NCBI GenBank assembly: GCA_036674765.1
Contig: JARVKI010000079.1
Location: 1-64,000, forward strand
DNA length: 64,000 nt
Source of the DNA: Seiridium cupressi
Lineage: Eukaryota; Ascomycota; Sordariomycetes; Amphisphaeriales; Sporocadaceae
Direction of reading: 5' to 3'
Part shown: positions 7,320 to 52,363 of the stretch, piece by piece
Layout: each line of letters begins with the position of its first letter
Numbering within the stretch: position 1 is the stretch's first letter
The notes under the pieces: generated by a model
Databases searched by the model: none
Told to the model about the DNA's origin: nothing
The model's input: only the letters and a program-made list of their open reading frames with translations
Made by a program: the position numbers and the translations under genes

Positions 7320-9069
7320 TTAGGCAAGTGAACCCATAGGGTCCCAGAGCGGGAGCACGACCGGCTCCTTCTTGAGCACATCCCTGACCTCCCTCGTCAA
7401 GAACCTTGGGTCCACGACCGCTTGGTAGGTGAACTCATCCATCCAGGCATCGCTCATGACGAACCAGCCTTTTTCGCCAGGAGCCTCGCCCCAGCTGTTC
7501 TGGACGCGCCACCTGATGGGCTTTCCGCTCTTCTCGTCGAGATGCACCGCCGTCAGAACCATGGCGTGCGTCATGGCGCTCTCGCCCACGCAGAGTCGTT
7601 CCGCCTTGGTCAGACCACCCTTCAGGATCTCGACGTTGAAGCCGAGCTCGTAATCAACGATGTCCAAATCCATGATGCCCCCAGTGCGGTCGCTGAATTT
7701 TCCGACGTCGCAGCCAAAGAATACGGGGACTCCTGATCTGAGCATGGAGATGACGGACTGCTTCAACGTATCCATCGCCACGTTTATATATGTCACGCCG
7801 CGGCCGCCGACGATGTTGCCTAGTCTATCTACGGACAACAGACTCAGGGGCTCATGTCGAGGGTCGTGAACAAGAGACACCATGCCTGCGATTGCGGACG
7901 AGGTGATGCGGTATTCGGAGGACGCAATGTCTTTTGAAAACTCAATAGGAGTGAGTGAGACGTTGCGCACCTTACCGTTCCTGTCGGCAAAGGTCCAGTC
8001 GAACTTCTCGGTCGCACTGGGTGGCGGGCCCAGAGTGAGTGTCAGAATGAGATGGATCTCGCGCATCATCTTCTGCTTGGCAGCGGATAAGGTCGCGGCC
8101 GTAGTGGACGATGACTTGAGGAGCTTTCGCAGAGTGATGGCATATTCTCGTAGTTTGGCCACGACAATATAGTTGACGCCGCGGCTGTTCATCGCATTCC
8201 AGCTGTCCGGGTAGAGTGTCTGCGGCACCAATCCGTATTTCTCAACGAGGTTGTATACCACTACGACATCTAGAGTCAGTATTTGCTTCTTCTAATATAC
8301 TTAATGAGTTGTCGGGAATCGAAACCCATATTTCAAGAGTAGAAACGCTAAATTAGGAACCGGTAAATTCCCAAAACAGGCTATACGGGGCATAAAATAA
8401 CTCCGGAAATTGCTTACTGTCCCATTGCCCACCGTCACTGATCGGTTCCCCAAGAAGGCGTTGGACGAGCCTTGACTCGAGGTCTTCGTCGGCAAGATCG
8501 ATGATGTTCTCCAGGAAGTAGTTTGCCTTCTCAAGCTTATCCCAGAAGAAGAGGTATGCTTGGGAGAGTTCAAAAGACTCAAGGTTATACTTCTTCATCA
8601 GCGCGACACGAAATACGTTCGTGCTCGCGAACAACCAGCACCGACCAGATGACCGTTGATTGGTGATAGGTGCGCCCTCAAAGGGGATCTGTACATTGAA
8701 GACGTGCTGGCCTGCGATCTTGGCAGAGCGCGAAGCTAAGACTTCCATTGGGTTGGCTGCGCTTAGGGCCGAGAGTGCAAGCCTGGAATATTTAGTCAGT
8801 AGAGCGTCCACATGTCAGACATCTTGATAAAACTATACAAACCTGTTCTTGGGGTCACGGAGCGCCCTGCTCTGCCACGAGCTAAGCAGCTGGACAGGCA
8901 GCCCTTCGGCCTGGCGAGATAAGCGTGCATCACTGCTCTTCTCATCATCGACATGTACGAAGTCCTCTTCGGCAGCTTCATCGCTCATCTCGAAAGACCG
9001 GAGTCTTTCCAAGACTGCCTTTTCATGCAAAGCCGATTCTGGCGTCACCTTCGATTGATATGAGCCCAT
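7320..9069 (-). CDS. lap3: Bleomycin hydrolase / cysteine aminopeptidase (Gal6/Lap3/Blh1, peptidase C1B)
   Basis: Cytosolic papain-like aminopeptidase that hydrolyses bleomycin and homocysteine thiolactone in characterised homologues and forms a hexameric barrel. Model: exons 8843-9069, 8418-8782 and 7320-8269; 1542 nt, 513 aa. The splice joins restore the conserved reading [16 protein letters not shown] and [18 protein letters not shown]. The catalytic triad is visible: Cys124 in [10 protein letters not shown], His432 in SAMTHAMVL, Asn455 in RVQNSWGEA. The C-terminus (LWDPMGSLA) matches the family, whose tail is self-trimmed and reaches into the active site. The start was chosen at MGSYQSKV; an upstream in-frame ATG-like extension adds nothing conserved. 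The first ~65 residues are acidic and family-variable. The second intron (8270-8417, 148 bp) is a copy of the repeated intron family described separately. Confidence 0.95.
8270..8417 (-). repeat. Introner-like intron copy A (148 bp)
   Basis: Intron 2 of the bleomycin hydrolase gene, GT-AG, phase 1. In sense orientation it aligns almost without gaps over its whole length with the intron at 49899-50045, and with both ends of the intron at 52129-52223. Shared landmarks are the start GTRAGYAATTTYYGG, a central CTCTTGAAAYATG block, and a CTRAC branch site within a few bases of the acceptor. Most differences between copies are transitions. Confidence 0.85.
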
Positions 9070-9779
9070 TATTGCACTGGTAAATGCGGGTAGATCAGTG
9101 TGCATATACGGGTAAAGAACAGTCAAACGATCCTATATCTATACACAATAGTCACGATGACCTCGAGCGTTAAGATGAGCTGTACAACAAGTAAAAGCAG
9201 TAAACATCCTACAGCTCGACAAGAAGAAACGGCGAGCTATGCTTGAGCTATGTCGTGACGAATGTAGGCTAAGTCCGAGTCGAGCAGGTAGATAGCTTAT
9301 CAATTCGCGGGTGATACCATCCAACACCGAACCCCAAGCGGGGAATCCATGTCGTGATTGGTCGGACTTATGAGCATTGTCTCAGTGTTGAACCATGATG
9401 GCCTACCTTGAAGGCCTACCCTGAAGCTTGGTGGCAGGCCTGTGATTAGGCAAAAATAATTATCGAGTATACATGCGATACCGAACTCCGAAGCCGAGTC
9501 CGCGGCGCTGGTAGTGAGGTCTTCATATTCACATGCGGCACAGAAACAAATGCGGACAACGTTGAACAATCAATTACCAGTCATTTACAGAGATACTATC
9601 TACTGAACAACCCGACAACAAATTTTCCAATCTCACAAGATAACCGCGACACCTGCCCCAAGTATAGCGTGAAGCGCTAACCGTTTGATTCATGTGCAAG
9701 GTCATGTCCCTATGTAATGCAAGATATTTGACTCCGTTTATAATCCATACATCGTGAGTAGCAATAGGCTGTTGCACAT
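9070..9779. other. Intergenic spacer: 5' of bleomycin hydrolase, 3' of hexA
   Basis: No coding frame of interest. It should hold the promoter of the bleomycin hydrolase gene and the 3' untranslated region of hexA. I see no repeat or RNA gene. Confidence 0.5.
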
Positions 9780-11299
9780 TTAAAGGCTGGAAGCGTGGAT
9801 GGTCTTGACATCAACGACGAGCTCACGGCCACCGTCGTTGAGGACAAGGACGCGGACGCTGCCGCGGCCAGACTCGAAAGCCTTGGACAGGCGGGTCCAG
9901 AGACCAGACTGGTCAGTGACGGGGATGCCGGTCTTGACGTCGCCAGTCTCAGTCATGGCAACAACGCTGCCGTCCTGAATGTCCAAGACACGGTACTGCT
10001 TGAAGACAGGGCCGAGCATGGTCTGGACGACAACGCTGGGGGCGGGGTTGGAGACGAAGGATGACTCCTCGTGGAGCTGCTTGGTGAACAGGTCGACACC
10101 GAGGTAACGGTGCTGGCCAGTAGCAGCCGAAGTGGAGATACGGATGACCTGGCAAGGGCGGCCTTGCAGCATCAAGATATCTCCCATGCGGACGTGGTGG
10201 CAGGGGATGGTTACTGTGTTGGGGATGGCAGAAGGCTCTGAGTGGCGGGGAGCACGCTCCCGGACCTGGCTGACCTCAACATGGTCGTGGTGGAATACTT
10301 TGTCGGCCATCTTGTGAAGACCGTGACGGAAAGAATGATAGTGTCCTAAGATATCAATTAGCTATCATTGTTGAATAGGAACAGGTGAATCTAAGCTTAC
10401 CACTTTCGTCGTAATATCCCATTCTAGACTTTTGAGCGCCTGAGTGGTAGGATCGAGGATACTCAACGGTTTCCTCGGTGACCTTGGTTTCCTTGTGGTA
10501 GGAAGGAGCTGGCTTGGATGCGTCGACGGTAGTCTCGACACGAACGTGCTCGTCGTACGAAGGACGGGCGTGAGAGCTGGCGGGTGGGTCAATGGTGGTT
10601 CCGCTTACGCGAACTTCCTCCTGGTAGGTGGGCTGGTAGCGGCTGCGGTACTCGCGCTCGATCTGATCGATTGCAGAGTATGAAGGGCGGTGCTGGCGGT
10701 CAACCTCGACGTAGGTCTCGGAAAAGGCGCTGGCAGGTCTGGGGCTTGTTAGTTGATATAACTATGGACGGAGAATAAACAATGTGTTAGGGAATGAGAA
10801 GGGGGCCCAAGCTTCCGCAGATCGCCGGAGGAGCTGCAGGGTGCGATACAGCTAACGTACGAGTCCCGAGGCTTGAGCTCTCAGGAAACATCAGACGCTG
10901 CGGATTGCCGGGACTCGGAAAACAGCTCGTTCTCTGCGCGCCTCTCATAGCTCAATCCTCAGACTCCATGAGTTTGATGTGGCGCGCCCAAACCACAAGC
11001 AGGAATACCAGATGGAACAGCTTAAACGAGTAAATACTGACCTGCGGTTCTCGGCGTAGTAGTCGTGGTGGACACCGGGACGGCGGTAACGTTCCTCTTC
11101 ACGTGTGATGCGGACCTCTTCTTCGCTGTAGCGGTGCTGCTCGTGGCGAGGAGGAAGGTGGACAGAGGCCTGAGATGAGGAGTATTGACCTTCCCGTCCG
11201 GCTTTCTTCTCGGGGAGCTTGATCTCAACCTCCTCGTGGGTCTGGGTTGTCGTCTGAACCTCAGCGGTCTTGTCGTCTTTGTAAGACGAGGGGAAGATG
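9780..11299 (-). CDS. hexA: HexA/HEX-1, Woronin body major protein (long N-terminal form; 5' end unresolved)
   Basis: HEX-1 self-assembles into the crystalline core of the Woronin body, a peroxisome-derived plug that seals septal pores of wounded hyphae. Model: exons ~11042-11299, 10401-10738 and 9780-10345. The core form starts at MGYYDESGHYHSF (ATG at 10422) and gives 195 aa, close to the 176 aa of Neurospora HEX-1. The eIF5A-like fold region is plain (IPCHHVRMGDILMLQ, then TETGDVKTGIPV). The two upstream exons join in frame (AG then A CCT across 10739-11041, 303 bp) and encode a charged, Tyr-rich extension, as in Aspergillus HexA. An in-frame stop lies just upstream of the first extension exon, so its true start needs another 5' exon. 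11299 is only the best acceptor (TTCCCTTCAG). The C-terminal tripeptide is SSL, not the canonical SRL peroxisomal signal. Confidence 0.9.
10739..11041 (-). other. 303-bp intron inside hexA long form
   Basis: Donor GTCAGT after GAACCGCAG and acceptor CCCCAG before ACCTGCC. It is several times longer than most introns in this window. It separates the optional N-terminal extension exon from the exon that carries the conserved MGYYDE start. Alternative splicing of hex1 is known in Aspergillus oryzae, so this intron may mark the isoform choice; that is inference. Confidence 0.65.
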
Positions 11300-11949
11300 C
11301 TGAAGGGAACGGGTACTCTGGCTTCAAAATCCAGATTGCCGACCTTTTAGGGCGCGAAGAGTCCTCTCCTCGACAACCTTTCACGCGTGAACGGAAAGGA
11401 AGACAAGAAGATTCCTCTTGCTCTTCTTTCTATATCTGAAAGAAAAGAAGGGAGAGAAGCAGCGGGCGGGATGGGCGCGCTTCTTGACCTGTTCTTTCAG
11501 TTGAGGGAAGAGAGGAAGAGGAGGATGTTGGTTTTTGGGTAGTGATTGGGTTGAAAAGCGGTCTGGCAGTTTATTGGAAGCAGGAGGAGAAAGGAGAGGA
11601 CGCACTGCTGGGGGGGAGGAGCATTGGTGCTGGCTTTTCAATGGTTCAGTTGATGCGTGGCACCTCAATGCAGGGTTCCTGTGGTCCAACGTTGTTTACA
11701 CGAGGTGGGCCTGTGTTTATCCCAGCCCATTTGCAGCTAGCCCACAGGCCGCGACCTCCCCCAACCTGGCCCAGCTCCACTTGGCCTGGAGACCAGATCC
11801 ACCGCTTACCGCTCACACACGTCGCGGATGCACCCGGCATGCGAGCCCAGCGCGAATACTGGGCTACGGGCAGAGCTGTCGGTGCGCACCATTTGCCAAC
11901 CTCATTTGAGCAGCCCGTCACCGATCAGCAGGCGCATGAGCCGCCCAAC

Positions 11950-11996
11950 TCTGGACCTTCTGGACCTTCTGGACCTTCTGGACCTTCTGGGCCTTC
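11950..11996. repeat. 9-bp tandem repeat, about five units
   Basis: The unit GGACCTTCT is repeated in tandem four times, then once with a one-base change (GGGCCTTCT). It is in non-coding sequence upstream of hexA. Confidence 0.9.
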
Positions 11997-12856
11997 TGTA
12001 CGGGCCCTCAGCCCATTGAGAATCGCAAATCCACACAGGGAACGTCATGTCTGGGCCACTGATAGACCTGCGAGCACAGGAAGCTTGTGCAGCTCCTATG
12101 GGGGCTTTCTATCGGTGACACAGGCCAGAGGCTGGCATGGTGCGGAGGAAAAAAGGTGGATGGGATGGGAACATGGAAGGAAGCTGGACGCGCTGGGCCG
12201 CTAGCTACCTTGCTCTAACCATTGAGAAGCTCGGATTGGCGCCACCACCAACTGTCACATCGACCACAATAGATTAGATATCACTCTCCTGTGCCTGCTG
12301 AAGCTGTCACTTTGGAGGTATGAGGCTACAGTGCATCAATTGGCCTGCACTGATCTCGCACCTCACATTGCAAATGCGCTCAGATGCCGAATTGGAAGGT
12401 TGGGGGGCTAGCACGGCTTCGAGACCGCCTGTGGAGGTTGGGAGCTCCCCGGGTGCCGCTTTGGTGGATGGCTGGGTAGCAGCACTGATCGAAGATCGCT
12501 CCATGTGCAACCCAATTGGATCCTCAAGCAGCGAGAACAGCCTGCCGATTCGACCATTTCCCAATTCCCAACCACGTCGTTGACCAGTGCTGCAGGTGGG
12601 CAGAAAGCATCTTCCATGGACGCGACGAGCGTGGACCGATCCCATTGGATCGACCCGGGGAGCATCTGCGGCTTATGCAAGCCAGAGTGTAGGTGTAGAG
12701 CTGATTGCTTTTTCTGCCCGGGGGACACGACCCTCACTCCACAGATCCTCATGTCTCTAAATTCTTAGTGCTTAGAGACCCAATGCGCTTCGTCCTCTTT
12801 GGATACTGCGACTCTCGAATCAGATGTTTCGAATGGTCACGATGAGTGCTTGCTTG

Positions 12857-12884
<28 letters not shown>
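12857..12884. repeat. (CTTT)7 microsatellite
   Basis: Seven perfect CTTT units followed by imperfect continuation. The minus-strand frame across it reads as a KKER repeat and is an artefact. Confidence 0.95.
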
Positions 12885-12888
<4 letters not shown>

Positions 12889-14518
12889 TTTCCAGATCCT
12901 CAACACTGGTGTCGATGCACTCCAAACCCCATTCATTGATCTCCAAATTACCCCTGAAATAAGAGCTGCGTGTTGCCATGACGACCGGGACCATTAATGC
13001 GCTAACGACGTCGGGGTTCTGGGCTTCTTCCCCAATGCGGAGTGGCGGAGCCTCGGCTTCTATTTAGACAGACCATCATGCTCCTCGGGTCATTCCCAGC
13101 GCATATCGAGTATCAGCACCCTTCACATGACAAACCAGAAACCTGAGACCTTCCGCCGTCTCCGGAGCGACGGGCGCGTCCTGACGGTAAACATCTTTGT
13201 CCGCAATTTTTGCCGTGTGCCGACGTCTTCGCCGTGTGGAGGCGGCCGATTAACACGAATTGGGCACGCCAAGTCCTGATGTACCAGCTGAAAATAAGAT
13301 TGGATAGCCTGCAGTATCATGATCCAAGCTCTCTTGGGTCGGCCTAATTGCGATTTGCCAATGGCGCGATAGTCGGCTACCACAATGCAGCGAAACGGCG
13401 AATCCACAACGCTAATATTCTCTCTGATTGGCGACCATCACGTGTAGAATAAGCCTCGAGAGCAGCGTTATGATCAATATTCATTGACGGCCTACTGTCC
13501 CTGCATTATATACGTGGTGTGGTACAGTAATTCTTGTATTTGAATGACTCTGGTGCGATTGTGAACTGTTTGCTTCCCAGGATGTTGGATGAGTACCGCG
13601 CTTCAAGATGGCAATGCCCCTAGTATGGATAGAGTTCTGGATGGTCCAGGGCGTGCTCTGGTACATGTACAATTGTAGTGAACTGCACATAATTGCCAAA
13701 GCAATGGGAAACGTGTGAAATTCATCAACTTGGGAATTGCAGGGTTGTACTTGCACTTAGACGAGTTGAAATTCGATCTGTTTGTAAGCAAGTTAGCTCG
13801 GCCCACACCGAGGACATGGGAGAAGTCATAGTCATTCTTTTGGACCTATGTATAGCCAGTGAATATACACACCTATCTCTAGCCTTGGGTCCGGCTACTT
13901 GGTTGCCTATATGGGTCGATAATCTGTCAAGCAAACTTTACAAAGCGACTGATATGTGTCGATGGTAGTTTTCAAGCGTTGTGTACGAACGACAAATTGA
14001 AACCACTCGAATCAAAAGTCAATCCTCTCATATCCTAGTATAAGCGTTACTCGATCTGTATTTCTTGAACTATCCATTAACCTTCATGTCCAACTCCAGT
14101 GCCCGAAAGTTGTTGTCCAATGTTATACTCATCACACCTCTGATACAATGTACAGTAAACTCGACTATAAGTGATGTGGGGCAGCACCTAGAAACACTAG
14201 TGGCCAGGCGATCCGGATGACGAGGAATGGCTACACTAGAATCGCCATGGGCTTTCATTGTGCTTTGCTCTGTATAGGCGCTGGCATGACTTCTATTCAG
14301 AGCTAAACTGGCTATTTTTTACGCTAAATAGTTCATGATGTTGTATATATGGAACGGGCACGTGACGTCATTGCCGAATGTGTCATCACCGAAAAAATGC
14401 CCCGCCATTTCCGTCTTTCGCAATCCAGCGCCCCGCGATCTTCATGCAGAATTTCCGTCAGCAACACCTTCTGCTGTCCATCTCTCACATGAACGCACAC
14501 GGAAGGTGAACGGTCAAG

Positions 14519-17500
14519 ATGAAGCAGCGTTTCTCTTCTTTAGACGTCAAGGTAAGTCCGCCCTCAAAAGTTACTGTTTGCCGGAGCTGACGTTCCCTGG
14601 CACTCAGGTCATTGCCCATGAGCTTTCGGCAAGCTTAGTTTCACTCCGAGTATCGAATATCTACGACCTGTCCTCCAAGATCCTACTCTTCAAGTTCGCC
14701 AAACCGGACAACAAGAAGCAGCTTCTTATTGACTCGGGCTTCCGATGTCACCTCACAGACTTTGCGCGAACGACCGCCGCCGCGCCTTCCGTCTTTGTTC
14801 AGAAGCTGCGGAAGTACCTCAAGACCAGGCGCTTGACTTCCGTTTCGCAGATCGGTACCGACCGCATCATCGAGTTCCAGTTCAGTGACGGCCAATACAG
14901 ATTATATCTGGAGTTCTTTGCGAGCGGAAATGTCATTCTGACGGACAACGAGCTGAAGATCCTGACGTTATTGCGCAATGTGCCAGAAGGCGAGGGCCAA
15001 GAGCCGCAGAGGGCCGGGCTACCATACTCCCTGGAGAATCGGCAGAACTTTGGAGGTATTCCAGCTTTGACGAAGGATAGGGTACGAGCCGCACTCAAGA
15101 CGATAGTAGACAAGAATGCATCCGCAACCGCGGCGGGCAAGAAAGTGAAGAAGAAGCCGGGGGATGAGCTGAGAAAAGGCCTGGCCACGACTATCACTGA
15201 ACTTCCCCCGATCCTGGTCGATCATGCGATGAAGACCAACGGCTTCGATTCTGCTTCTCAACCGGCGGCCGTGCTTGAAAACGAAGAATTGCTGGATCAT
15301 CTTCTCCGTTCTCTCGAGCAGGCGCGGAAGATAGTAGAGGATGTAACCAGTTCAGACACGTGTAAGGGATACATCTTTGCTAAGAAGCGACCGAACGCTT
15401 CGCAGGAGGGTACCGAGCAGAACGAAGGCCAGTCTCAATCTAGCGGGCTACTTTACGAGGACTTCCACCCCTTTATCCCACAACAATTCCAGGAGGATTC
15501 GCAATACGCCGTCGTCGACTTCGACAACTATAATTCTTTGGTGGACGAGTTCTTTTCCTCCATAGAAGGACAGAAGTTGGAATCAAAACTATCAGAACGC
15601 GAGGCGGCAGCAAAGAGGAAGCTTGAGGCTGCCAAGGCAGACCAAGCAAAGAGGATAGAGGGGCTGCAAGAAGCTCAAACGCTGAACATGCGGAAAGCCG
15701 CCGCCATACAAGCAAATGTGGAACGTGTTCAAGAAGCCATTGATGCGGTAAATGGTCTCATCGCTCAAGGAATGGACTGGGTTGATATTGGGAAGCTCAT
15801 CGATCGAGAGCGTTTACGCAATAACCCTGTTGCCGCAATTGTCGCATCACCACTGAAGTTGTCAGAGAACACAATCACGCTATTGTTGGGAGAGGCCGAG
15901 GTTGACGAAGATGAAGATGAGGCATATGAAACGGATTCATCTGACTCTGATTCGGAGAGTGGGTTTGGCGGTTCGGTCTCTTCGAAACAGAACAACAAGA
16001 AATTGTCCGTCGATGTCGACCTTGGCCTTTCGCCATGGGCTAATGCGCGCGAGTACTACGGGGAGAGAAAGCAGGCTGTCGTCAAGGAACAGAAGACTGC
16101 CGCCCAATCTGAAATTGCGCTGAAGAATGCCGAGCAAAAAATTGCCATTGAGCTGAAGAAAGGGCTGAAGCAAGAGAAGCCGCTTTTGCATCCAGTGAGG
16201 AGGCAGATGTGGTTTGAAAAGTTCATTTGGTTCATCTCATCAGACGGTTATCTCGTTCTGGGTGGTAAAGATGCAGCTCAGAACGAGATCATCTATCGTC
16301 GGTATTTAAAGAAGGGTGACATCTACGTCCACGCAGATCTCCATGGGGCCCCCAGTGTGGTTATCAAGAACAATCCGCAAACGCCCGACGCGCCCATCCC
16401 ACCCTCGACACTATCACAAGCGGGCCATCTCTCTGTTTGCGCATCATCTGCTTGGGACTCGAAAGCGGGTATGGGGGCCTACTGGGTCAACGCAGATCAG
16501 GTGTCCAAGTCCGCGCCCACGGGCGAATTCTTGCCATCAGGCAGCTTCATGATTCGTGGGAAGAAGAACTTCTTGCCGCCAGCTCAACTCATTCTCGGAT
16601 TTGGCGTCATGTTCAAGATCAGCGAGGAGAGCAAGGCCAAGCATGTGAAGCACCGACTTCATGGGGATTCCGGGAAACATGAAGCCCTAGAATCTGAAGA
16701 ACATGTTGACACAGCTGCTGGTGAGACTACAGGTCAAGATGACCAGAGCGATTTTGGTGATCAAACTGATCCCGAAGAAGACGTCGGTGATGACAAGGAC
16801 AAGGATCATGAGGACAGGGCTAATCCTCTGCAATCATCTGGGGAGGCCGATAAAGAGCTCGAAGCGGTAGAAGAGGAGCCTTCACCAAATGAGCAAATGG
16901 ACAAGCTTGATATACAAGAACCAGAGGCCACGGAAGTTTCCCCCAAGACGGAGAACGAACAAGCCGGCGACGATCACGTGGAGGGAGAGTCCGAAGAAGA
17001 AGAGGAAGAACACACCGGGCCTTCAGCAAAATCGACTCCGACGGCGGTATCTGGTACGGCGACCCCTCAATCTCAAACACAGAAGAGGCAGCAGCCCAAG
17101 CGCGGCCAACGAGGTAAAGCCAAGAAGATTGCAGCCAAATACAAGGACCAAGACGATGAAGACCGTCTCGCGATCGAAACCCTCATTGGCTCTAGTGCAG
17201 GTCAGAAAAAAGCTGAGGCTGAAGCTCAAGCTAAGGCAGAGCGAGAGGCTGCTCAAGCAGCTGCCAAGGAACGTCGCCGTGCTCAGCATCAGAGACAGCA
17301 GCGAGAGACGGCAGAGCATGAAGAAGTCCGCAAGATGATGCTCGAAGAAGGTGTGGATGTCCTGGAACCTGACGAGGCTGAAAAAGCTACCCCACTCGAT
17401 AGCTTGGTCGGCGTGCCGATGGTCGGCGATGAAATATTGGAGGCCGTGGTAGTCTGTGGTCCGTACTCTGCACTGGGAAAACTAAAGTACAAGGTCAAAC

Positions 17501-17784
17501 TTCAACCAGGTTCTCTGAAGAAGGGCAAAGCGGTCAAGGAGGTCCTAGAGGGCTGGAAAGCAGTGAGCACCAGGAGGGGCGTTCTCGATGAGAAGAGCCA
17601 GGATAAGGAGCGAATGTGGCCACGCGAGGTGGAATTGATCAAAGCCCTGAAACCCGAAGAAGCGGTTAACACCATACCGGTTGGGAAGGTGAGAATCATG
17701 GGTTTCCCGGGGAGTTCAGGAGGTGGCGGAGGTGGTGATAAAAGCAAAGGTGGGAAAGGGGGTGGGAAAGGAAAGAAGAGGTAG
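14519..17784 (+). CDS. rqc2: Rqc2/Tae2/NEMF, ribosome-associated quality control subunit
   Basis: Binds 60S subunits that carry stalled peptidyl-tRNA, recruits the Ltn1 ubiquitin ligase and elongates the nascent chain with C-terminal Ala/Thr (CAT) tails. Model: exon 14519-14551 (MKQRFSSLDVK) joined to 14608-17784 across a 56-bp intron; 1069 aa, the family's usual size. The short first exon is required: it supplies the conserved N-terminus with Asp9. Asp96-Arg97 (in IGTDRIIEFQF) correspond to yeast Asp98-Arg99. These three residues are needed for tRNA-dependent tailing in yeast. The order is NFACT-N (~1-500) with a coiled-coil segment, NFACT-R from ~545 (MWFEKFIWFISSDGYLVLGG), an acidic Glu/Asp-rich stretch (~710-820), a basic Ala/Arg coiled coil, NFACT-C from ~939 (TPLDSLVGVPMVGDE), and a Gly/Lys tail ending in GKKR. 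An in-frame ATG at 14335 is not conserved. Confidence 0.95.
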
Positions 17785-18477
17785 ACAGAGCTTTAAATCA
17801 GAGCAGAGCACCAAATATATAAATAATATCCGAATTCATATGAGGCGGTTGGTTTGAAACCCACATGAAACGTGGTAACTTGTACAAGCACAAAGAAGCT
17901 GATTATTAAAACTTACTCCTTTGGCGTGGATGGCTGTCAATACCTGCTGATTTCATGTGGGACAGCTGTATCTTTAGCTTGTTTGAAAGACAGATTGACC
18001 GAATAAGTTTCTCTATAGCGCTGCATAATATAGAATGAAGGAAGCTGTCTTCAAGCTACAGAGTTTACTATCTCCAGAATCACTGCTTTCATATCCCAAA
18101 GAATTTCTCAGACTTCCAATATAGATGGTCTCTCCTTCATAAAATTTTCTTCGCTATGAATCGGTCATGGTTTTGATTCTGATCTATTTATTCTCTTCGT
18201 TCTCGTCTATTCTAGCGTACTAAAAATAGGCCTCAATATATTCTCATTCGCCGTATGGGAAAAACTACTCCAGAAAACCATAGGTTTCCTTATAGGGGGA
18301 AAAGTGCCACCAGCTTATACCACAGACGGATATTCCACAAGATAAAAGTCCTCAATAATAAGATTCTCAAAAAGATTCTGATCTATGATGTTACCTATTA
18401 ATAACTGACACAAAGAGCTTGCCTCTGCTTCCTTAGATACTGGAATGGAATAGCTAGAGGAGGGATTAGATCTGTAT
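17785..18477. other. AT-rich spacer downstream of rqc2
   Basis: Visibly A/T-rich sequence, especially 18050-18470, with no coding frame. It holds the rqc2 3' end and then low-complexity sequence next to a glycosidase relic. Confidence 0.5.
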
Positions 18478-18675
18478 CTAAGCGATTGTGGCATTCAACG
18501 GCGCGGCAAGGTCGCTTGAAGCAGAATTCGTCCCAACGTAGAAGCTATACAGCGCCTTATCCAACCGGAATCGACCATCTACGAAGTAAACCAGCCCGAC
18601 TACTGGAATGGTTGTGCCTGCTGTGCGCTGATCACCGGGTTGCAGGTCCACCTTGATAAAACCTACCACGCGCTT
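18478..18675 (-). pseudogene. C-terminal relic of a GH3 glycosidase (Fn3-like domain)
   Basis: The frame from about 18675 to the stop at 18478 reads like the last part of a GH3 fibronectin-III-like domain: KRVVGFIKVDLQPGDQR, then YFVDGRFRLDKALYSFYVG, then NSASSDL. Fungal GH3 enzymes end with the pattern LVGF..V.L.PGE...(W/F)V...Y...VG.SS.D(I/L). The upstream part of the frame does not continue the domain, and no catalytic GH3 domain lies within the next 2 kb upstream. I infer a decayed, 5'-deleted copy. It is too diverged in the joining region to be a direct duplicate of the GH3 gene at 23494-26216. A very short real gene is possible but unlikely. Confidence 0.6.
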
Positions 18676-30557: not shown

Positions 30558-30641
30558 TGATGACTTTAGATGCGAAGTCAAATCAATACACGCGCCCGAT
30601 AGTCAATCTGCTCCCCGCTTTCAGGCAGGAAGTAGCTGCAG

Positions 30642-41654: not shown

Positions 41655-41692
41655 CACTGAATTGGCCTGAGCGCACTGAATTGGCCTGAGCG
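41655..41692. repeat. 19-bp direct tandem repeat, two perfect units
   Basis: The unit CACTGAATTGGCCTGAGCG occurs twice in tandem, followed by a partial CACTG. It is in non-coding sequence. Confidence 0.9.
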
Positions 41693-42334
41693 CACTGGAC
41701 ACGTCTGCTTGGGTGCAGTACATTATCTACGTTATTCCAAAACCTTTTGCAATCAAAGGATTCGGGTGGGTTGCGCTTGAAACCCCCCCTTTGACGAATG
41801 CAGTGTTTCCTGACGTCTTTGGAGGAAACAAAGCACCAGAAGATGCGGAGGGTTATCTACACCTGATTGGGCGAGGGTGCCACACATTTGCACAACAGGA
41901 TTGACAATGCAGATTTCGAGGTGCATTCAATGATGGGGTCTAACATTGGCTGTACGCCCCACGCCCCTGACTGAGCGAGGAGCACAACGAACCCCGCCAA
42001 CGCCAACGTGAAGCGAAAACATCCATAGATAATGTACCATAGCACAGATACTGTAGGGGCAGCCAATAGCTTTGTCGACCTGGACCTTGCGGGGAATATG
42101 ATGATCAGCTACCTAACACCAGCTGGCTCCGCTTGCCAAGACCACTGACAAGTGCCCGGTGCCCAGAAACTCGTGTAACCTAATTGACGTTGAGTTCGTG
42201 TCATGTGATATTGCGCTTGCTGCATCACGTCCAGTCGCGCAGCCGGAGCACAGAGCCGCGTAAAGAGGGAACGATACATGCCGAGCGCCAGCCTATTTTG
42301 GGCATGACATGGTACTGCGCCGAATCTAGCCAGC

Positions 42335-44325
42335 ATGTCTAAAAATCGAGATATCAGAGCCTTCTTTGGCAAGAAGACAGCTCAACAAACTGCACCATAC
42401 ACCAACAGCGTCTTTCAGCTGGCCCCTCAGCCTGAGCAAACGCACCAGCCAACACCACCGGTGCCGTCCCGGGAACCGTCTCTGGACCTGCCGTCTTCGC
42501 CAGTAACCCCGCAAAAGAAGAATGTGAGAACACCTCTTACTCGGGACGTTGAGATTAAGGGGTCGGATGACGATGATTCGGATGCTTCGTTGGAGTCGCT
42601 GGGTGAGCTCATAGGGCGCAAGTCTGGACCGTCTTACCAGCGACCGCCAACCTTGGCTACTACCCCAAAGGCAAAGAGAATTGCATCGGGAAACTTCCAC
42701 CGCTCTCCTCTCACACTTCAGCAACAAGCCAAACACAAATTTGACCTCAAGACTCTGCTCAGTCATGTAAGACAAGACGACGCCACAGATGAAAGCGCCC
42801 GGAGGGCCGACCAGGCCAAGGCACAGGCTGAGAAGGAGTTGGAGCCTGAAGCCGATCCTGATAGAATGGCCGGAGAAGCCTTCAGTGACGAGGATGAGGC
42901 CAGGGGTGACAAACTTGCTATGGCTATCGACCGAACCACCGCCGGTGAGGAGTCTCGCCCAAGAGCCTATTTCTTCAACCCAGAGGGAGCCCCACCCAAG
43001 ATCCTTAGACGACCATTTCCCAAGAAGGTTGCCAAGGCAAAGCCATGGAACATTCTGCAAGACGCCAGCTCGAGAAGTCAGATGTTTATCCATGGATTGC
43101 CCACAGCCCTGGCACGAAGAGGAAAAGAGTTGCCTGATGAGTTGTACTTGTGGATCCTGGACGAAATATGCGTAGAGAGTGACCTCCTTTTACGGAATCA
43201 GTACATCAAACTAGCCGCCCTTTGTCATGAGGACACAGGCAATCTAGTAGATGAGGAACTGTTGTACCACATGCTGGAGAAGATAGGGGGCCAGGAGCAC
43301 TCCACCGCCAGCGACCGGTTCGAATTATCACCTGCACTGCCGAATCAATATTCTGGGAGAGACTGGTCACCACTCAGATCCTTCCTCGAGCTGCTTGCTC
43401 AAATAGGAGCTGATCTTACTCCCGAAGACAATGTCTCTGCAATAAAGTTGCTGCTACGACTAAGTCTTGATCCCATTATCACGACTGTGGCAGGGCTTCG
43501 AGTGGCTTACTCCAAAGCCATGCTCGCTTTGATTTCGGCGTTACCCGAACCCAAAGAGCTGTGGAGCGACTATGTAAGTGTCTTGTTAGTCGACCACTGT
43601 CGAAAGATTACTAATATCCACAGTGTATGAAGATATGCAACTATCTCTACGGAGGTGTAGATCAAGCATCACAGCGCAGCATTGCCATAACGCTGCTTCC
43701 AACATCAGCACCCCGCACGGTTGAATTGCAACGGAGACTAGCATTGGAAGCCTTACTAGACGAGCCGAATCTTGGTGCAAAGCATCCAGACGAGGCCATC
43801 AACATGCAGGATCTTTTCAATCGCCTATCGAAGCCGGACTTCCAGGTCACCAACTCGACAGACTTTGGTGAACTCAACGCACTCATCACACTCCTCGATA
43901 TTGTAGTCCACGATGGCTCTTATCTCTACCATGCCCGCCTTTCCCCTCCCACTGCATCATCGTCCACATCTGCCCTCACTCCGATCCCAACTCCCTCAAC
44001 CCTCGCCTCACCCTCCATAACCCCGTCCCCAGCATCAGAAGCCGAGGCAAGGGCGAAATACGACGCTGATATTGATCGGCTCGTCGTCCAGCTCAAGGTT
44101 CTGCACGACAAGATCAGCGATAACACGCTCGTCTCTAAAAAGGAAGCCAAGCTTGCGCTCGATGGCATGATGAAGCGGCTTACAAACACGGTCAGGTCGC
44201 GGCCACCACCCAAGACTAGTATTTTTGATGGCATACTCACCAGTAAGGAGGATGTGAACCTACCGAAGCAAAAGGATTTTATGAAAAAATGGACCACTGG
44301 AAAAGCATCAAGAGAAGGAAAATAG
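42335..44325 (+). CDS. Nuclear protein with PIP-like N-terminus, possible Nse6/CANIN (SLF2-like) member
   Basis: Model: exon 42335-43573 joined to 43624-44325 across a 50-bp intron (GTAAGT...CACAG); 646 aa. The N-terminus MSKNRDIRAFFGKK resembles a PCNA-interacting box: Ile-x-x-Phe-Phe followed by basic residues, like the start of RFC1. Residues ~20-220 are disordered, rich in Ser/Pro/Asp. A helical block follows (FDLKTLLSHVRQDD..., Glu/Ala/Lys-rich). The second half is an all-helical fold (LPDELYLWILDEICVES, LLLRNQYIKLAALC, DWSPLRSFLELLAQIGAD). This arrangement reminds me of the CANIN domain of SLF2/Nse6, which binds Smc5/6 complex subunits. That assignment is from memory of the pattern, not a search. 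It is convergent with the V-ATPase subunit E gene. Confidence 0.7.
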
Positions 44326-44644
44326 AAGCTCTCATCCAATGTGATGAGCAGAGTATCAGCTACACGAGCGCACGTACGCTGGTAGGATAGTGATAACGCA
44401 TGGAACGAGTGAGAGAACATTGATGTATTGATATAAACCTGCTTCTTGCGGAACGGCCCCTTCTCCGCTGTATGATACATCGTCCGTCCAGACGACCAGA
44501 TACCCATAGACGCTAGTTAGAGCCGCAGAACTCGGGGGGAACAATGATGCATGGCAGACAACCTCTTCTTCCTCGTAATCTTCGCCCAGCCTTTGCTCCA
44601 AATGTTGCAGTTTGGCAGACAGTCTTCCGACGTATGGCATCCTC
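44326..44644. other. Short convergent 3' spacer
   Basis: 319 bp between two tail-to-tail stop codons; it should contain both polyadenylation regions. Nothing else seen. Confidence 0.5.
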
Positions 44645-45604
44645 TTAATCGAAGAACTTGCGGTTCGGGTTATCACCAAATAGAGTCTTTCGCACAGCAG
44701 GCAAGCCCACTTCTTGCAATAGCTTCAGGCGCTCCTCGAATGTGTTGTTGATGTCGATTTTGCCCTGACCTCCAACAATGACAACACCTCCGGCACTGGA
44801 AATCCACAATGTCAGCATTTCATAAGCCCCGAGCCATATGCCGGCCCATTGAATCGGACGGTGCAACAAGATGGTAACCATGACCTCAGATCGGGGAACT
44901 CACCTTTGCTCAGGCAGAGCATTCTCCTCGTCCACGTTGACCTTGGTCTCCTTGCCCGTCTTCTCCTTGTACTCCTTCTCGGCATCCTCAATGGCGCCCT
45001 TGAGGACCTTGGCATCCTTCTTCCGGCCCTTGACGCTGACCTCCTTCTCGCTCAGCGCATATAGGCCCTCCAGTATCAAGTTCTTGAGGATGCCCCGGTA
45101 CTTCTTCTCGTCCTTGGCGCCGTCGGTGAGCTTCTTGCCGGCGGCCTCGAAGATCTCGTCGAGCAGCTCCTGCCGGGCGCCCAGGACCTTGAGCCGCGTC
45201 TTGTTGGCGACGGTGGAGCGCGTGATCTGCTGCGTCATGGAGGCCTGCTTGAACTTCTTGGCGTACGAGGCGTCGATCGAGTCCGTCTCCTGGCGCACGA
45301 GCTTGGACTTCTCGATCGAGAACTCCTCATTAGCTTTTATCTCGATCTCGCGTGCCTTCTCGAGCGCTTCTTGCTTGATGAAGGCCGTCATCTTCTTGAG
45401 CTCCTGGTCGACCTAAGGGGGGGAAGCAGATTCCATGTTAGCTGCCTGTTGTCACTCCTTCGAGGCGGGCATAGAGGATTATGGTTGACAGGAAGCTCCC
45501 AAAGTGGTGCAGTCAAGTCCATCATAATTCATCATGTATGCGGGACAAGTACAAGGTGTGGAATAACGCACCTGAGCGTCCGACATGGCGTGGACTTGCG
45601 ACAT
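44645..45604 (-). CDS. vma4: V-type H+-ATPase subunit E (Vma4)
   Basis: Peripheral-stalk subunit that, with subunit G, holds the catalytic V1 sector to the membrane sector during vacuolar acidification. Model: exons 45572-45604 ([11 protein letters not shown]), 44904-45412 and 44645-44795; introns 159 and 108 bp; 693 nt, 230 aa, the family's standard length. The tiny first exon and the join to [19 protein letters not shown] reproduce the conserved N-terminus. A long helix rich in Glu/Lys/Ala (residues ~15-110) forms the stalk, followed by a globular C-terminal domain with [19 protein letters not shown] and an ending in NRKFFD. Confidence 0.97.
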
Positions 45605-46761
45605 CTTGCCGGCTTTGTATGCGTGATATGGGGAAATCGGGTTGTTCTAGGTTGAGGAATCGGGGAGTATCTGCTTGGGGGTAAGCAGTCGAAAGGGTCG
45701 GACAAATCGCTTTGCGATGCAGTAGCCTGGCAGAGCTCTCGAGGATGTTCCGGGCTCGATATCGAGGGAGTATGTCGTAGGATGTCGTCGTTGCTGAGGA
45801 TATGGTGGGTCCTCGAACTTGGAGAGCTTCAACTGCAGCCAGCAACGGGTCGCTGACGACGTCGGTCTGCAGCAGCACAGCACCTGGGCAGCTAGCGAAC
45901 CAACGAAGAGAAGCGGGCCTAGCTCGGGGAGCGCGGTCAAGCCACACCTATCCGCCACGAGACGCCACGTTTGCCTGAAGATGGGAAGTTGGAGCGTCTG
46001 ATCCGGCCCACTGTGAACTACCAGGAGCCTCCCATGGCCTGGCCAGCGCCAACAGCGGGCCGAGCAATAGCAGCAGGCTGGCCGCTAAGAAACAGGCAGT
46101 ACTGTGGTACTGGAGATTGGCGCTGGCAGGTCCCTGCAGCGTGGATGATGCCTTGTGACCGTGGGGACTGGATCTTAAGACTCTTGATGCTTCAATGCAA
46201 CCGTCTGTCAATTGTTTCAATTTGACGCTTTGGGGCATTCATGTAAATCCGTCTGTAGATTGCGAATTCGGACACTTCTGACCGGCTATTATGCTACTGC
46301 TTCAGAGCTGCACCCTGCGAAGTGGCTGAACTGGCAGACGTGTTCCTGTCTTGGACAAAGGTTTCAAGGTACATACTGGCTTTAGGTGCTGTTGGGAATC
46401 ACCACCCACGCTTCCATCGAATCGCATCCTCCATCCCGCCCATTTCGGCAGGGCCCTGGTCGGCTTTGGCGTCATTGAGCACACACCCGTCATCTGCCGT
46501 CATCAGTTGACTGTGTGCAGTCCGCATGCGATTCTCCCGCCGACGAAGGAACATGTTCCTAGATTAACGTCCTATTTCTTGCAGAACAGCTGTTGCCGCG
46601 ACCTCACCGCCACCTTTACACTAGCGAACACGAAGCTCAACGAAATCGCATACGAGGGAGCTGGGCAATAACAACAACGCAACGACCGATGCGCAGCCGA
46701 GGCTCGACATCATCAGCGATTCCCCTCGCTAGATGATCTTGGACTGTGGAATACTGCTGCT
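45605..46761. promoter_or_regulatory. Divergent spacer between vma4 and the NIPA-like gene
   Basis: 1.16 kb between two starts facing away from each other. It contains both promoters and no supportable ORF. Confidence 0.5.
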
Positions 46762-48562
46762 ATGGGATCGCTGGGCGGTCTCTCTCCCGGAGGGAGTATT
46801 GCGGTATGCCCATGAAATCTTACATCCCCAATCTCCGGCCTTTAAGAGCTCCAGCTGATTTACAAACGACGTACAGATCGGCGTCTTGGTCGGCCTAATA
46901 TCTACCAGTGTACAGTCCTTGGGGCTCACCTTGCAGCGGAAATCACATATACTCGAAGACGAGAAAGGACCGCACGATGTCCGCCGACCACCGCATCGAA
47001 GGCGCAGATGGCAGTTGGGCATGGGCATGTTCGTAGTGGCGAATATATTGGGAAGCAGTATACAAATCTCGACACTGCCTCTACCGGTCTTGTCAACACT
47101 ACAAGCGGCCGGGTTGGTGTTCAATTCGATATGCGCCACCTTGATACTGAGCGAGCCTTTCACGAGATGGAGTCTATGGGGCACCTTGCTGGTATCCGGA
47201 GGAGCTGTGCTGATCGGGATATTCGGCGCTATACCATCACCGGCTCATAGCTTGAGAGAGTTGCTGGATTTGATGGGCAGATGGCAGTTCATTCTATGGA
47301 TGGCGCTGCAGGCTGTGCTCGTCGTGAGCGTTGCTGTTGCGACAGATCTGGTCAGCCATTTCACGAACCTGTCGCAGAACTCGCGCTTCCGCTTCATTAG
47401 AGGACTAGCATACGGATGCATAAGTGGCATACTATCGGCCCACTCCTTACTATTCGCCAAATCAGCCGTCGAGTTGATCCTCAGGACTATTGCCGACGGC
47501 GACAATCAGTTTGTACACTGGCAGGCATGGATGATCGTTCTTGGACTGATCATATTGGCTCTGAGCCAGTTGTACTACCTTCACCGCGGATTGAAGCTTG
47601 TCTCAACCTCCGTCCTATACCCTCTTGTATTCTGCATCTACAACATCATCGCCATTTTGGATGGTCTCATTTATTTTAACCAAACAAATCTCATTTCAGC
47701 TCTGGATGCCGGTCTAATAGCAGTTGGTACCGTCATCCTTCTTGCTGGCGTCTTGGCCTTGTCGTGGCGTCTTAGCGATGAACAGCACCCACCCGCGGTG
47801 GGCCAGTCAACCCTCACGCCAGGTCTTGGGTTTGTGGAGGATACCGACGGCGAAGAAGAGTCGCTCCTAGACTCCGATACCATCACCGATGACGAGGAAG
47901 CCGTTCCACCGACATACAATACTTTTGCGCCTGGCACAGGCGAGTCTACGCCATTGGCACCCGGACGAAAAACATCGAAGCGGTGGCATGAGCGGGCAGA
48001 GATATGGGGTGAGCTGGAGGATCAAGAACAACCCAGTCCTCCGCTTCATCCTCGCCGATCGATGACTCTTCCTGCAGGCGCAGACGAGACAACCGCATTG
48101 TTAGGCGGAGGAAAGCGACACGTGTCGAACGCTTCTGTAGGCTCACTTTCAACAGTGGGGCCTTCATCAGCAACGGGCGATGGGCCACAGAGGAAATCAC
48201 TGCGCCGGAGGAGGAAGTCGACCGGCTTTCCCGGCTTCACAGCACGAAAAATGCCCGGGAGAAGGAGTAGCACCAGTGGCGCTGGGGTACAGGATGCCCT
48301 CGGTGGTATTTTAAAGATGAGATGGTTCAGGGGCCGGCAGCGCGGTGATAGTACAAGCGCTGTGGAGGACTTCTTGCCTAGTGGCCGTAGAAATTGGAGC
48401 TGGAGCCGCTCGCCGAGGTTTAGGGACGAGGAGGAAGCGGTGGGAGAGACGAGGGTGCAAAGTAGAGATACAGATCCTGGGCCTGGAGGTGGCGCAGGGG
48501 AGAATGGCGAGGGAGGAAGTTCAAGAGAAAGAAACAGAGAAGGTGGCGATGATGTTGTATAG
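46762..48562 (+). CDS. NIPA/DUF803-family membrane protein (putative Mg2+ transporter)
   Basis: Model: exon 46762-46803 (MGSLGGLSPGGSIA) joined to 46877-48562 across a 73-bp intron; 575 aa. The join completes the first membrane helix (IGVLVGLISTSVQSLGLTLQ). About nine membrane helices follow up to residue ~315 (for example FVVANILGSSIQI, LLVSGGAVLIGIFGAI, LVFCIYNIIAILDGLIYF), the topology of the NIPA family, members of which move Mg2+ in animals. The last ~260 residues form a cytosolic Arg/Ser/Gly-rich tail with acidic-dileucine candidates (EEESLL, ETTALL) that could direct vacuolar or endosomal sorting. The NIPA assignment rests on helix pattern and remembered family motifs. Confidence 0.85.
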
Positions 48563-49194
48563 GCTATAGTCCTATCATGAATGAAATACCCACTTGGACT
48601 GAGCAGGAGTCTCAGATCCAGGAAGGAATGGCGGTTCTCATTTGTTATACCATATTTTTAGCGGCCGTAGCACTTCATACCTCAAGACATGACTCTGGGC
48701 CACGCGCTATAGCAGGTATTATCGACGAGCTACAATTAACAATGCTACTCGTCTCGTGTGTGAAGTATCACTGCCTTCTTATGGGCTTGCCTTGAACAGA
48801 AGATTTCCTACAATTTAGTAGACGCTAGTTACTGTCCAATCTGAGCCGACTGCGACTTCCTGTGTTCAACATAATAAAACCAATTCAGCTTTGAAGCCAA
48901 GGTTTCGTAGGTTCAACAAAGACTACAGCATAGTGAGGCTCAGTACGTAGGGTTGCGGACAACAGGCTCGGAATGGCCTAAAATTGCAGTGCAGGATGAA
49001 TGCTCGATAGACCGGGAAGCGGTGGGCAATGAAGCGGTGAGTTCTCCGTTCGCAACCACGCACATGACTTCGTTCTTTGTTCGCTCAGTTATCTTGACTT
49101 ATACCGTCATCGAGCGGCTTCCTGCCATACACAACGTACCTATCAGGGAGTGTCAGCTGGGGTGATCTGATCCTACGACGCTCTTCTGGCCAAC
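48563..49194. other. Convergent 3' spacer
   Basis: Between the stops of the NIPA-like gene (+) and the methyltransferase gene (-). No supportable feature. Confidence 0.5.
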
Positions 49195-50641
49195 TTACAC
49201 GCCGAAACACCATGCATACTTGCGATTGAGAACATCCTTTCTACATTCCTCCAGCAGCTCCTCGATCTCTTCCGGGCTCACCCCGGCCAAGCTCAAGAGC
49301 GCCCAGCTCATGCCTCGCAGGCCAGCCATGATGCTCCGCAGCAAGTACCAACCGGATTCCTTGAGTCTGGGGTCCGAAGACCAAGGGCCCATGGGCCACT
49401 CGATATAGTGTTCTTCGACGTCAACAACTACCCGCGAGAGATCAGCCGCGCAATTGGCTTCATGGGAAGCACGGGAAGATTCTGCCTCTTTCCCCAAAAT
49501 AAGATGAGGTGGACTTACAGCCAACCTCTTCAAGCCACTCCTTGTACCGGCTCGCCTTGTAGAAATCGCGTTTCAGCTTGGCGGCTCCTGTGGCGACGTA
49601 GTCGTTCCATCTCTTCACTGCTGAACCTTTGCATGGAAAATTTTTCATCAGCAAGCTCTCCGATCTGGCATATTTTACCTTCGTCTACTCGGTGGTTGCT
49701 CTCTGACTTACCCTCTTCTCCCTTGTGTAGATCAATTATCGGCAACGTCGAGTCCTGGAACTCAATCCAGCCTCCAGGGTTCAGATACCGAAAGGCGTTC
49801 TCCATGACCTTTTTCGGCTGGTCGAAGCACGTCACCATGAACCGGAGATGTATGTAATCAAATCTGCTGTTGGGTGTCTGGAAGACCCACTTCAATGCCT
49901 TGGAGTTAGCGATTGCTTCTTTGAGTGTGCTTAGCAAACTATTGGGAGTTGAAGCTCATCTTCCAGAGCAAGATCGTTCAATCAGGGAACGGTCACTCAT
50001 ACAACAAGCTACAACGAGTAGAAAGTAGCTCCAGAAATTACTCACTATTTCTTCCTCGGCGTCATCCTTTTGAAAGCTGCAGTTGGCGATGGTGAACGGC
50101 GGCTGGATAGCGCTGAGATCTGTGCCTATCACTTGGGAGTCCGGGTGCTCCTCAGCTAGTCAAGGCGACCAGTTAAGAAATTGTTTCCTCTCTTCCACAC
50201 TCCTCTTTTCCAGACGGGTACACCGAGAGGCGACTTACCGAATTGGATCGCCCAGATTCCCGTCCCTGTGCCAATGTCTAGCACGTAGTGAGGTGACTCT
50301 GTAAAAGGGGCTAGAGCGAGCCTGCCGTCAAGGAGGAGTCGGAAGCTCACGTGCATGATGTCGAGGCGGTCTTGCTCTGCCTACATATGGTAAGTCTTGC
50401 GGAATTCCGGGCCTCAATCGAACAGACCTACAGCGTCATTTGGGAGAAGATATTTGCCCGGCTTATAGTTTTGATAGAGATTGCCGGATTCGCCCACGAC
50501 CGATTCGGCATCGTATACGGACTGGCCCGATGATTTACTGAAATCATCGTCGACGATCATGTAATTGGCCTTTGCTTCCAGAACTTCCATGTCCCACTGG
50601 CCCGCATCCTGATGCTCTAGCTTGGTTCTCGGCGCGGCCAT
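49195..50641 (-). CDS. SAM-dependent methyltransferase of the TAM/LaeA-like class
   Basis: Model: six exons 50432-50641, 50239-50380, 50046-50155, 49712-49898, 49519-49626, 49195-49427; 990 nt, 329 aa. Introns are 51, 83, 147, 85 and 91 bp. Each join restores family sequence: LPNDA-AEQDRLDIMH, WAIQF-AEEHPDSQVIGTD, the cap-region GSAVKRWNDYVATGAAKL, and EEVG-FVDVEEHYIEWP. Motif I (VLDIGTGTGIWAI) binds S-adenosylmethionine; the acidic post-I residue is in VIGTDLSAIQP, and motif III is RYLNPGGWIEFQD. Substrate unknown; many paralogues exist in each fungus, so this is not LaeA itself. Intron 3 (49899-50045) is a copy of the repeated intron family. An alternative acceptor 9 bp downstream would drop Ala-Leu-Lys. 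Confidence 0.92.
49899..50045 (-). repeat. Introner-like intron copy B (147 bp)
   Basis: Intron 3 of the methyltransferase gene, phase 0. It starts GTGAGTAATTTCTGGAG and ends in a CTAAC branch site followed by TCCAAG. It aligns end to end with the 148-bp intron at 8270-8417 and, in its outer parts, with the 95-bp intron at 52129-52223. Confidence 0.85.
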
Positions 50642-51599
50642 TCTGGTGCAGTCCAACTAGTGTTGTTTATTATAGTGGCCGTCAGGGTCGAGCTATGACA
50701 TGGGCGCGAACAAGCATGAGTTTTGGGAGCGGGCCGAACTGGCTTTACCCGAGTTTACACAGTCGTATCATGAGATGTGAGGAGGGCTTACCCGGGTTTC
50801 AGCTTGATGATGTGTGCTGCGTCTGCATTTGTGGATCTCAGGCCCCTGTCCCCTGTTGATGAACACGCACTTCTTATCCGATCGGGCACGCGTAAGCGAT
50901 GCACCCGAAGACAGGCTGGAGTCTGGACACAACCACCATACGACCGGGGGGGGAGGAGTATATTCGTAGGCGATCGATGGGTAGATGTCGGTATTATCTC
51001 TGAGAGTACGCACTCGCTCCCAGAGTGTTGATACCGACTACCCAGCTCGCGACACTAATACATATCCCCCAGGAACTACAACGCCAGAGAGGATGGAATC
51101 ATGGTGGTTGAATACAATCATGCTTTTCAGAACATCGACCCATCCCCCTTAAGGAGAGGCTGCAGCTTGTACTGCAGCCTATTCGGACGCATTCGCCCGG
51201 TGACACTATATCGCTCACCAACATGATAAGATTCACGATAGAGGCTATCACGAATCTTGCACTGATCACAGCTGATGTCCTTAGCTTCGAACAAATTCTG
51301 CGTGACTATAACAACACTACGACTTGGTGCCTTTAGACTATTGAGACTGACTTCTACTGTTGATCCACCGATTTCTTGTCAGTAGCCACGACAGAGCCAA
51401 CGGCACGGCACGCTGAACGGGGGATTGGGTTATTAGAATCATGGCAAACAGACCGACCATACATCACCATTCGTTTGTTCGAATGATCCCCCTCTCTGAT
51501 TCCCTGAGACGACGTATTTCTGGGACTGCATGCATTGGTCGGGAGCTTTGGTCTACTGCAAATGATGAGTTAGCTTGCATTGCTTATGACAGCCTCCCA
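50642..51599. other. Spacer upstream of the methyltransferase gene
   Basis: Methyltransferase promoter next to 50641, and the 3' flank of the next gene. No coding content recognised; frames overlapping 51441-51719 (+) are antisense to the next gene's 3' end. Confidence 0.5.
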
Positions 51600-52363
51600 T
51601 CACATCTTGGTTTCTGGCTCACCGAAATAGTAGCGGAGGATTACGTTCGGGCCTCTGTCTTCATCCTGAAGGAATGGTGCACGGCCAAAAGCGTAATACC
51701 CAATGGTCTGCATCAGTGAACTGCGATGCATGAAACATGCTCTTCCTGGATACGTCCTGATGGAGATTATTGTGATTGCTGGTCGTTTCTCATCTATGCC
51801 CACGTCATTAACGCGGTGAACGCACTGTTCTCTTTCTGAAATATATAATTGCTTGTTCGAATCCTTGCTGGTGTTCGGATACTTGTTGAGCATCAATTTG
51901 CAAAGCTCCTTTGCACAGTTGACTCTGCTGGCGAACCGTCGCCACTCTTCAGAAGATACGCCTTCTTCTTTCAGATCATCCGGGTCGCATAGGACGTCAT
52001 CGTCTCGGCTCAGCAGATTCCGCATGTCTTCATAGTCGAAATTCCTGTTCGGCCGACGACCCAGTTCCCAGTTCCGGAATTGCTGAGCCCATCGGGTTAC
52101 TTGTCTCGCTTCAATCTCACTATAACACCTGGGGTCAGCGATCTTTTCCTCGAGTGTGCTTGGCGACTTGTCTGGAGCTGAAGTTCATGTTTCAAGAGCA
52201 AAATAACGCCAAAAATTGCTTACTGGATGTGCTCAACTACAGCTGCCCATTCTTCTTTATTCAATGCGGAGCCGTCCACCGGAGTTTGTATAGTTAGAGC
52301 TTCCGATTCAGATGACGACGAATCGGCGCCATAATCACGAGGTGGCATCTCCGAGCTTTCCAT
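51600..52363 (-). CDS. Uncharacterised acidic protein, 222 aa
   Basis: Family not recognised. Model: exon 52224-52363 joined to 51600-52128 across a 95-bp intron; 669 nt. The join gives EEWAAVVEHI-QCYSEIEARQVTRWAQQF. The N-terminus is Ser/Glu-rich (MESSEMPPRDYGADSSSS); the middle is helical with regular Trp and Arg (FRNWELGRRPNRNFDYEDMR, then SSEEWRRFASRVN). No membrane segment or signal peptide. The last ~70 residues are less convincing and could include an unrecognised intron. The intron belongs to the repeated intron family, a copy of which also sits in the neighbouring methyltransferase gene. Confidence 0.6.
52129..52223 (-). repeat. Introner-like intron copy C (95 bp, internally shortened)
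   Basis: Phase-2 intron of the 51.6-kb gene. The first ~25 bases (GTAAGCAATTTTTGGCGTTAT) and the last ~70 match copies A and B; about 50 bases of their middle are absent. It ends in a CTGAC branch site followed by CCCAG. Confidence 0.85.

Follow-up and report, generated by a model that had tools for sequence, protein, structure and literature searches.

The gain of introns is a long-standing problem, and the accounts considered here either invoke transposons with duplication of the target or describe fungal introns that arise at apparently random sites, perhaps by an RNA-based route. In the closest described systems, the sister spliceosomal twin introns (stwintrons) and cropped sister introns of Hypoxylaceae and Xylariaceae, the sections consulted describe seamless insertion, no target-site duplication (TSD), terminal symmetry and unbiased exon borders (PMC12403724), while Gozashti et al., in the portion of their report used here, describe ascomycete introner families without terminal inverted repeats (TIRs) or TSDs (PMC9860276). 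In this work, we analyzed three introns of the ascomycete Seiridium cupressi found within a window of 64,000 nucleotides (contig JARVKI010000079.1, positions 1 to 64,000) and searched the rest of the genome for their relatives. The three are members of an introner family that seems to have inserted copies of itself seamlessly into the coding sequences of many different genes.

All three introns lie on the minus strand. Copy 1 (8261..8417, 157 bp) interrupts a bleomycin hydrolase gene in phase 1 at the target CA^TG, the caret marking the point of insertion; the half-site CA (8418..8419, minus strand) is exonic and precedes the donor, and the half-site TG (8259..8260, minus strand), also exonic, adjoins the acceptor and provides letters 2 and 3 of a conserved ATG codon. 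Copy 2 (49890..50045, 156 bp) is inserted in phase 0 at TA^TG in a methyltransferase gene (Pfam Methyltransf_23), with the Pfam match spanning the exon junction, and copy 3 (52120..52223, 104 bp) in phase 2 at CA^TG in a gene without Pfam match. The host frames bear out these phases, which had been proposed in a first-pass annotation of the window that described the three introns as a near-identical introner-like family. Their family resemblance is clear, since the global alignment scores of the three pairs (38, 11 and 14) lie far above the maxima reached in 500 shuffles each (-5.5, -14.5 and -14.0), but "near-identical" was too strong, as only 103/157, 73/106 and 77/105 positions (66-73%) are identical. 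The differences are mostly transitions, as the annotation had stated (transitions to transversions 41:13, 27:6 and 22:6), and the alignment also confirms that the middle is missing from the third intron; copy 3 is some 53 bp shorter and was left out of the 83 full copies counted below. Relative to the consensus of a 32-row alignment, identity is 90% for copy 1, 67.5% for copy 2 and 74.5% for copy 3, and copy 2 has diverged and is probably older.

The acceptors had to be corrected. They had been placed at 8270, 49899 and 52129, with intron lengths of 148, 147 and 95 bp, whereas the corrected acceptors lie 9 bases further 3' and the lengths are those given above. The 9 additional bases are also conserved, up to a second AG. 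The earlier site is excluded in 28/53 host frames, by an in-frame stop in 15 and by a non-AG dinucleotide in 13, and is open in 25; the later one produces in bleomycin hydrolase the ungapped sequence GGQWD|MVYN, which is invariant in 12/12 aligned fungal proteins. Because of this ungapped product and of the frames in which the earlier site is excluded, the second AG is the better acceptor. Neither is the branch site tight against the acceptor, as had been described: in 73/83 copies the branch A is positioned 15 nt from the end of the acceptor. As to the hosts themselves, the bleomycin hydrolase of the window shares 98% identity with a listed S. cardinale protein, and another host, a serine dehydratase, shares 99% with a listed protein of S. 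unicorne.

The search covered the S. cupressi assembly (Sporocadaceae, Amphisphaeriales; 45.36 Mb in 228 contigs). Intron 1 as query gave at least 41 matches including itself (40 of 97 candidates were scored), the others being 79-90% identical to it, and introns 2 and 3 gave 13 and 22 matches, respectively, each including itself. A donor-end pattern of 20 bases, matched with no more than 2 mismatches, was found at 168 places versus 11 for the reversed control pattern, and a 22-base acceptor-end pattern at 112 places versus 0 for its control; these counts, which confirm the further copies that the introner reading called for, suggest well over 100 copies genome-wide. From the ends found with few mismatches (90 and 61 matches, 46 of them common), capture-recapture yielded about 119 copies in contigs C1-C86, an estimate that is probably a lower bound. 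A profile search of 83 fetched loci and the window retrieved 88 distinct copies, 83 of them with full ends, and all statistics on insertion, target and shape refer to the latter; the sample leans to copies resembling intron 1 and with well-kept donor ends, by which the loci were picked. The full copies are canonical GT-AG introns, typically of 157 nt, and their conserved ends fall at the splice sites. Within the analyzed set, identity to the nearest neighbour reaches 97.5%, with a median of 89%. Among 60 copies within 16% of the consensus we counted 615 transitions and 310 transversions, with C>T changes at 94/717 positions before A, 28/596 before T and 25/597 before C. Repeat-induced point mutation as the sole cause of the transitions was rejected, as T>C and A>G changes are also common. 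At one locus (L025:1326-1660) two introner copies stand in tandem, with 20 nt between them that would form an exon.

Similarity among the copies runs end to end although their hosts are non-homologous genes of many families. One way to explain similar introns without any intron movement would be an ordinary repeat that settled inside pre-existing introns, which are tolerant landing sites for repeats, or chance resemblance or shared ancestry of old introns. Conservation, however, starts and stops at the splice sites plus the TG of the target, the host genes belong to many families, paralogues lack the intron and the two closest copies (97.5% identical; L060 and L073) lie on different contigs, all of which makes such secondary similarity highly improbable.

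The position of the copies within coding sequence was evaluated through the reading frame of the joined exons, which stays open over about 60 codons in 64/83 copies, compared with 27/83 for the antisense strand, 9/83 when the intron is retained and 32-39/83 for frame-shifted joins. An open-frame test in sense was also passed by 64/83 sites, compared with 221/494 control positions located 600-1000 bp away, so that the copies are enriched in sense coding exons; together with the number of genomic copies and the alignment scores, this enrichment supports the introner reading of the first-pass annotation. At some of the sites that failed, one of the two flanks does contain a long open frame, and codon-usage scoring was too weak for separating coding from non-coding sites. 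Twenty fragments, 19 joined hosts and one antisense reading, were compared with Pfam. In a first set all ten matched a family (PALP, asparaginase, NUDIX, M28 peptidase, P450, aldo/keto reductase, DAO, short-chain dehydrogenase, IBR and GH2), the match crossing the exon junction in 8/10, and in a second set 7/10 had a match (methyltransferase, HET, P450 twice, UbiD, Zn cluster and GH5 C-terminal domain), three remaining without match. In addition, three host proteins align to PDB chains gap-free at the junction, and no residue is gained or lost there in the hosts compared with homologues. Insertions occur in all three codon phases. The deposited S. cupressi L-asparaginase holds all 408/408 exon residues of its host gene; this protein record and the open joined frames agree with the copies being spliced out. 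In the UbiD-family host (L060:2001-2159) an in-frame stop follows soon after the insertion.

Paralogues within the same genome suggest that the introners were gained. In the HET host, 18/18 next-best paralogue rows cross the site without room for an intron, as do 4/4 paralogue rows (E below 1e-30) in the aldo/keto reductase host, and gain at formerly empty sites would be the simpler reading for these two genes. Two P450 genes (L028 and L072) carry copies at different sites and, by eye, each is uninterrupted at the site used in the other. Seamlessness is further indicated by the lack of TSDs: compared over two bases, the exon end repeats the intron end, or the intron start the exon start, in 0/83 copies, and the other offsets scanned are near chance. 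This bears directly on transposon introners of the type in which the duplication supplies one of the splice sites. Such elements would also produce in-frame intron gain and would carry terminal inverted repeats, as the copies described here do, but no splice site is common to the flank over two bases in any of the 83 copies and no duplication appeared at the scanned offsets; for these copies the explanation is refuted, and we give it next to no weight for the family.

The exon borders are strongly biased towards CA^TG. In the 83 copies C is found at -2 in 53, A at -1 in 55 and T at +1 in 80; TG follows the insertion in 70, with a background of 6.9%, and the complete CATG marks 34/83 sites versus a background of 0.5%. 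The TG lies outside both the intron 1 query and the donor-end pattern by which most loci were picked. The residues encoded at the junctions are conserved in homologues: D|M of bleomycin hydrolase is present in 119/120 homologues listed (the remaining one without a match to the search pattern), the asparaginase junction has Cys in 96, Val in 18 and Thr in 2 of 120 listed (4 without match), and that of serine dehydratase has Cys in 56 and Ala in 39 of 120 listed (25 without match), or Cys in 37, Ala in 1 and 2 without match among the nearest 40. This conservation implies that the target sites predate the insertions. It also speaks to the idea that TG and CA form part of the element, comparable to CACTA transposons with CA...TG ends, and stay behind when it is spliced out. 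Here the conserved block does continue to TAGTG, which is a CACTA-type transposon end, and a minority of the listed homologues differ at the junction (the 39 Ala among 120 serine dehydratases, the 18 Val and 2 Thr among 120 asparaginases). Nevertheless, junction residues are conserved in homologues, the hosts compared contain no extra residue and CA varies even among the best-scoring copies; inclusion of TG or CA in the element was rejected on the conserved junction residues and the variable CA, and we consider it very unlikely.

In 52 host frames, the codon split by the 18 phase-1 insertions is always ATG and never CTG, GTG or TTG, a pattern for which the target bias may be an incomplete explanation. 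Phase 0 is more frequent than expected from the local supply of TG (18/47 TG sites versus 9.5). A weak additional exon bias was noticed at -6 (C or G, 77%) and +7 (A or G, 75%).

The ends of the introner form an imperfect inverted repeat in register: 30/47 terminal positions of the consensus are complementary, with at most 26 in 10,000 shuffles, and 61/83 copies exceed the 99th percentile of their shuffles. The span of 47 positions was chosen after seeing a free local search for self-complementarity, which by itself was not significant either for the consensus (28 versus a mean of 23.4, sd 5.4, in 200 shuffles) or in 30 of the 83 copies (mean z 0.40). The predicted RNA forms a rod in which the sequence after the donor would pair with the stretch between branch site and acceptor. 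No Rfam family matched the window and four loci at the gathering threshold.

Taken together, the data are probably best explained by an introner family that moved as excised intron RNA into CA^TG-like exon sites. RNA excised by splicing is favored as the mobile form because the ends of the element are the splice sites, the copies are biased to sense coding sequence, the joins are seamless and no longer partner was seen in 40 loci. The self-complementary ends would hold both termini together and may protect the intron RNA. From there, the excised intron could be reverse-spliced by the spliceosome into an mRNA, reverse-transcribed and recombined into the gene, or it could be ligated into a nicked or broken sense strand and then reverse-transcribed; in either case, some step that reads CA^TG would pick the insertion site. 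As the new intron would splice cleanly at once, its insertion would be nearly neutral and its sequence would later decay. A more specific version, in which this amounts to spliceosomal intron retrohoming with target choice, that is, end-paired excised RNA put into sense coding sequence by a CA^TG-reading machinery, is put forward tentatively, and we regard it as rather unlikely. Site-specific intron mobility is familiar from group II introns and, if that version were true, it would also exist among nuclear introns.

Several observations weigh against movement as excised RNA. A DNA transposon would be expected to have just such inverted-repeat ends and such a near-palindromic target, and T at +1 in 80/83 copies has no obvious reason under reverse splicing. 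Conserved RNA structure, whose examination the first-pass annotation had suggested, has partial support, from the self-complementary ends more than from the fold, which is only modestly better than shuffles (z -1.99, 5/200 shuffles); compensatory change is weak (the observed value was reached by 25 and 36 of 500 shuffles) and stem covariation was detected in 3/22 pairs. This weak covariation would fit a symmetry that counts for the mobile source but no longer for inserted copies. Besides, 19/83 sites do not pass the open-frame test, in 13/83 the longer frame is the antisense one and no clear sense coding frame was seen at L073, L076, L078 and L079. Finally, the HET and aldo/keto reductase paralogues might have lost the intron, although this is the less parsimonious reading.

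The main competitor to excised RNA is a miniature DNA transposon without TSD, whose transposase would cut CA^TG and whose ends would by chance be splice sites, copies in exons surviving by being spliced. The imperfect TIRs in register with the ends and the strong target motif speak for it, though on balance we consider it unlikely. Against it, GT and AG are the exact ends of the element, and the copies are enriched in sense coding exons, whereas a DNA element would, by reasoning rather than by a census, be expected to have left many intergenic and antisense copies. Furthermore, all 40 loci fetched by a donor-end match (of the 168 matches) hold a whole short copy and none a longer partner element, Helitron being the only transposase family searched for; the Helitron protein PF14214 had no match in the genome, but 0/14 control genomes matched either. 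Whichever route applies, the Seiridium family joins seamless insertion, inverted-repeat ends, a clear target motif and copies up to 97.5% identical, a combination that makes the insertion step testable, and its preference for CA|TG is a new clue on how introns spread.

Seiridium presumably belongs to the same fungal subclass as the Hypoxylaceae, and we found no record of introners in Seiridium or Sporocadaceae among the papers listed in a literature search that did not extend to supplements and most subscription papers. By description, the Dothideomycetes introner-like elements are likewise multiplied ascomycete introns gained at new sites, in another fungal class, as far as the consulted part of that report goes (PMC4457414). 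In contrast to the ascomycete families characterized by Gozashti et al. in the portion cited, the Seiridium family has imperfect TIRs; the introners of Acanthoeca sp., a distant eukaryote, are there also said to have TIRs without TSDs (PMC9860276). Spy DNA transposons, which according to the excerpt used here insert within AAATTT, share with the Seiridium family the absence of TSD and a strong near-palindromic target motif, but they move by cut-and-paste with a DDE transposase and use another target (PMC4482050), whereas no transposase partner was present in the 40 Seiridium loci examined.

The closest likeness is with the sister (stw)introns of Xylariales. As presented in the sections available, they too are sequence-similar introns in unrelated genes, inserted seamlessly and without TSD, with terminal inverted repeats (of about 45-55 nt in their case) and a complementary pair close to the termini, the 3' partner of which is located between the branch site and the acceptor (PMC12403724). 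The same sections describe the sister stwintrons as [D1,2] stwintrons and report no exon-border bias (PMC12403724), whereas the Seiridium copies are canonical introns, typically of 157 nt, with a strong CA^TG bias. A [D1,2] structure was rejected for the Seiridium copies, as an internal AG|TRAGY occurs in 0/83 and G before GT in 3/83, and the published NTIRE-10 word GTATAAAAAC was present in 0/88 copies. Judged by that word and by the published descriptions, the Seiridium family thus appears to resemble the Hypoxylaceae sister introns while differing from them in sequence.

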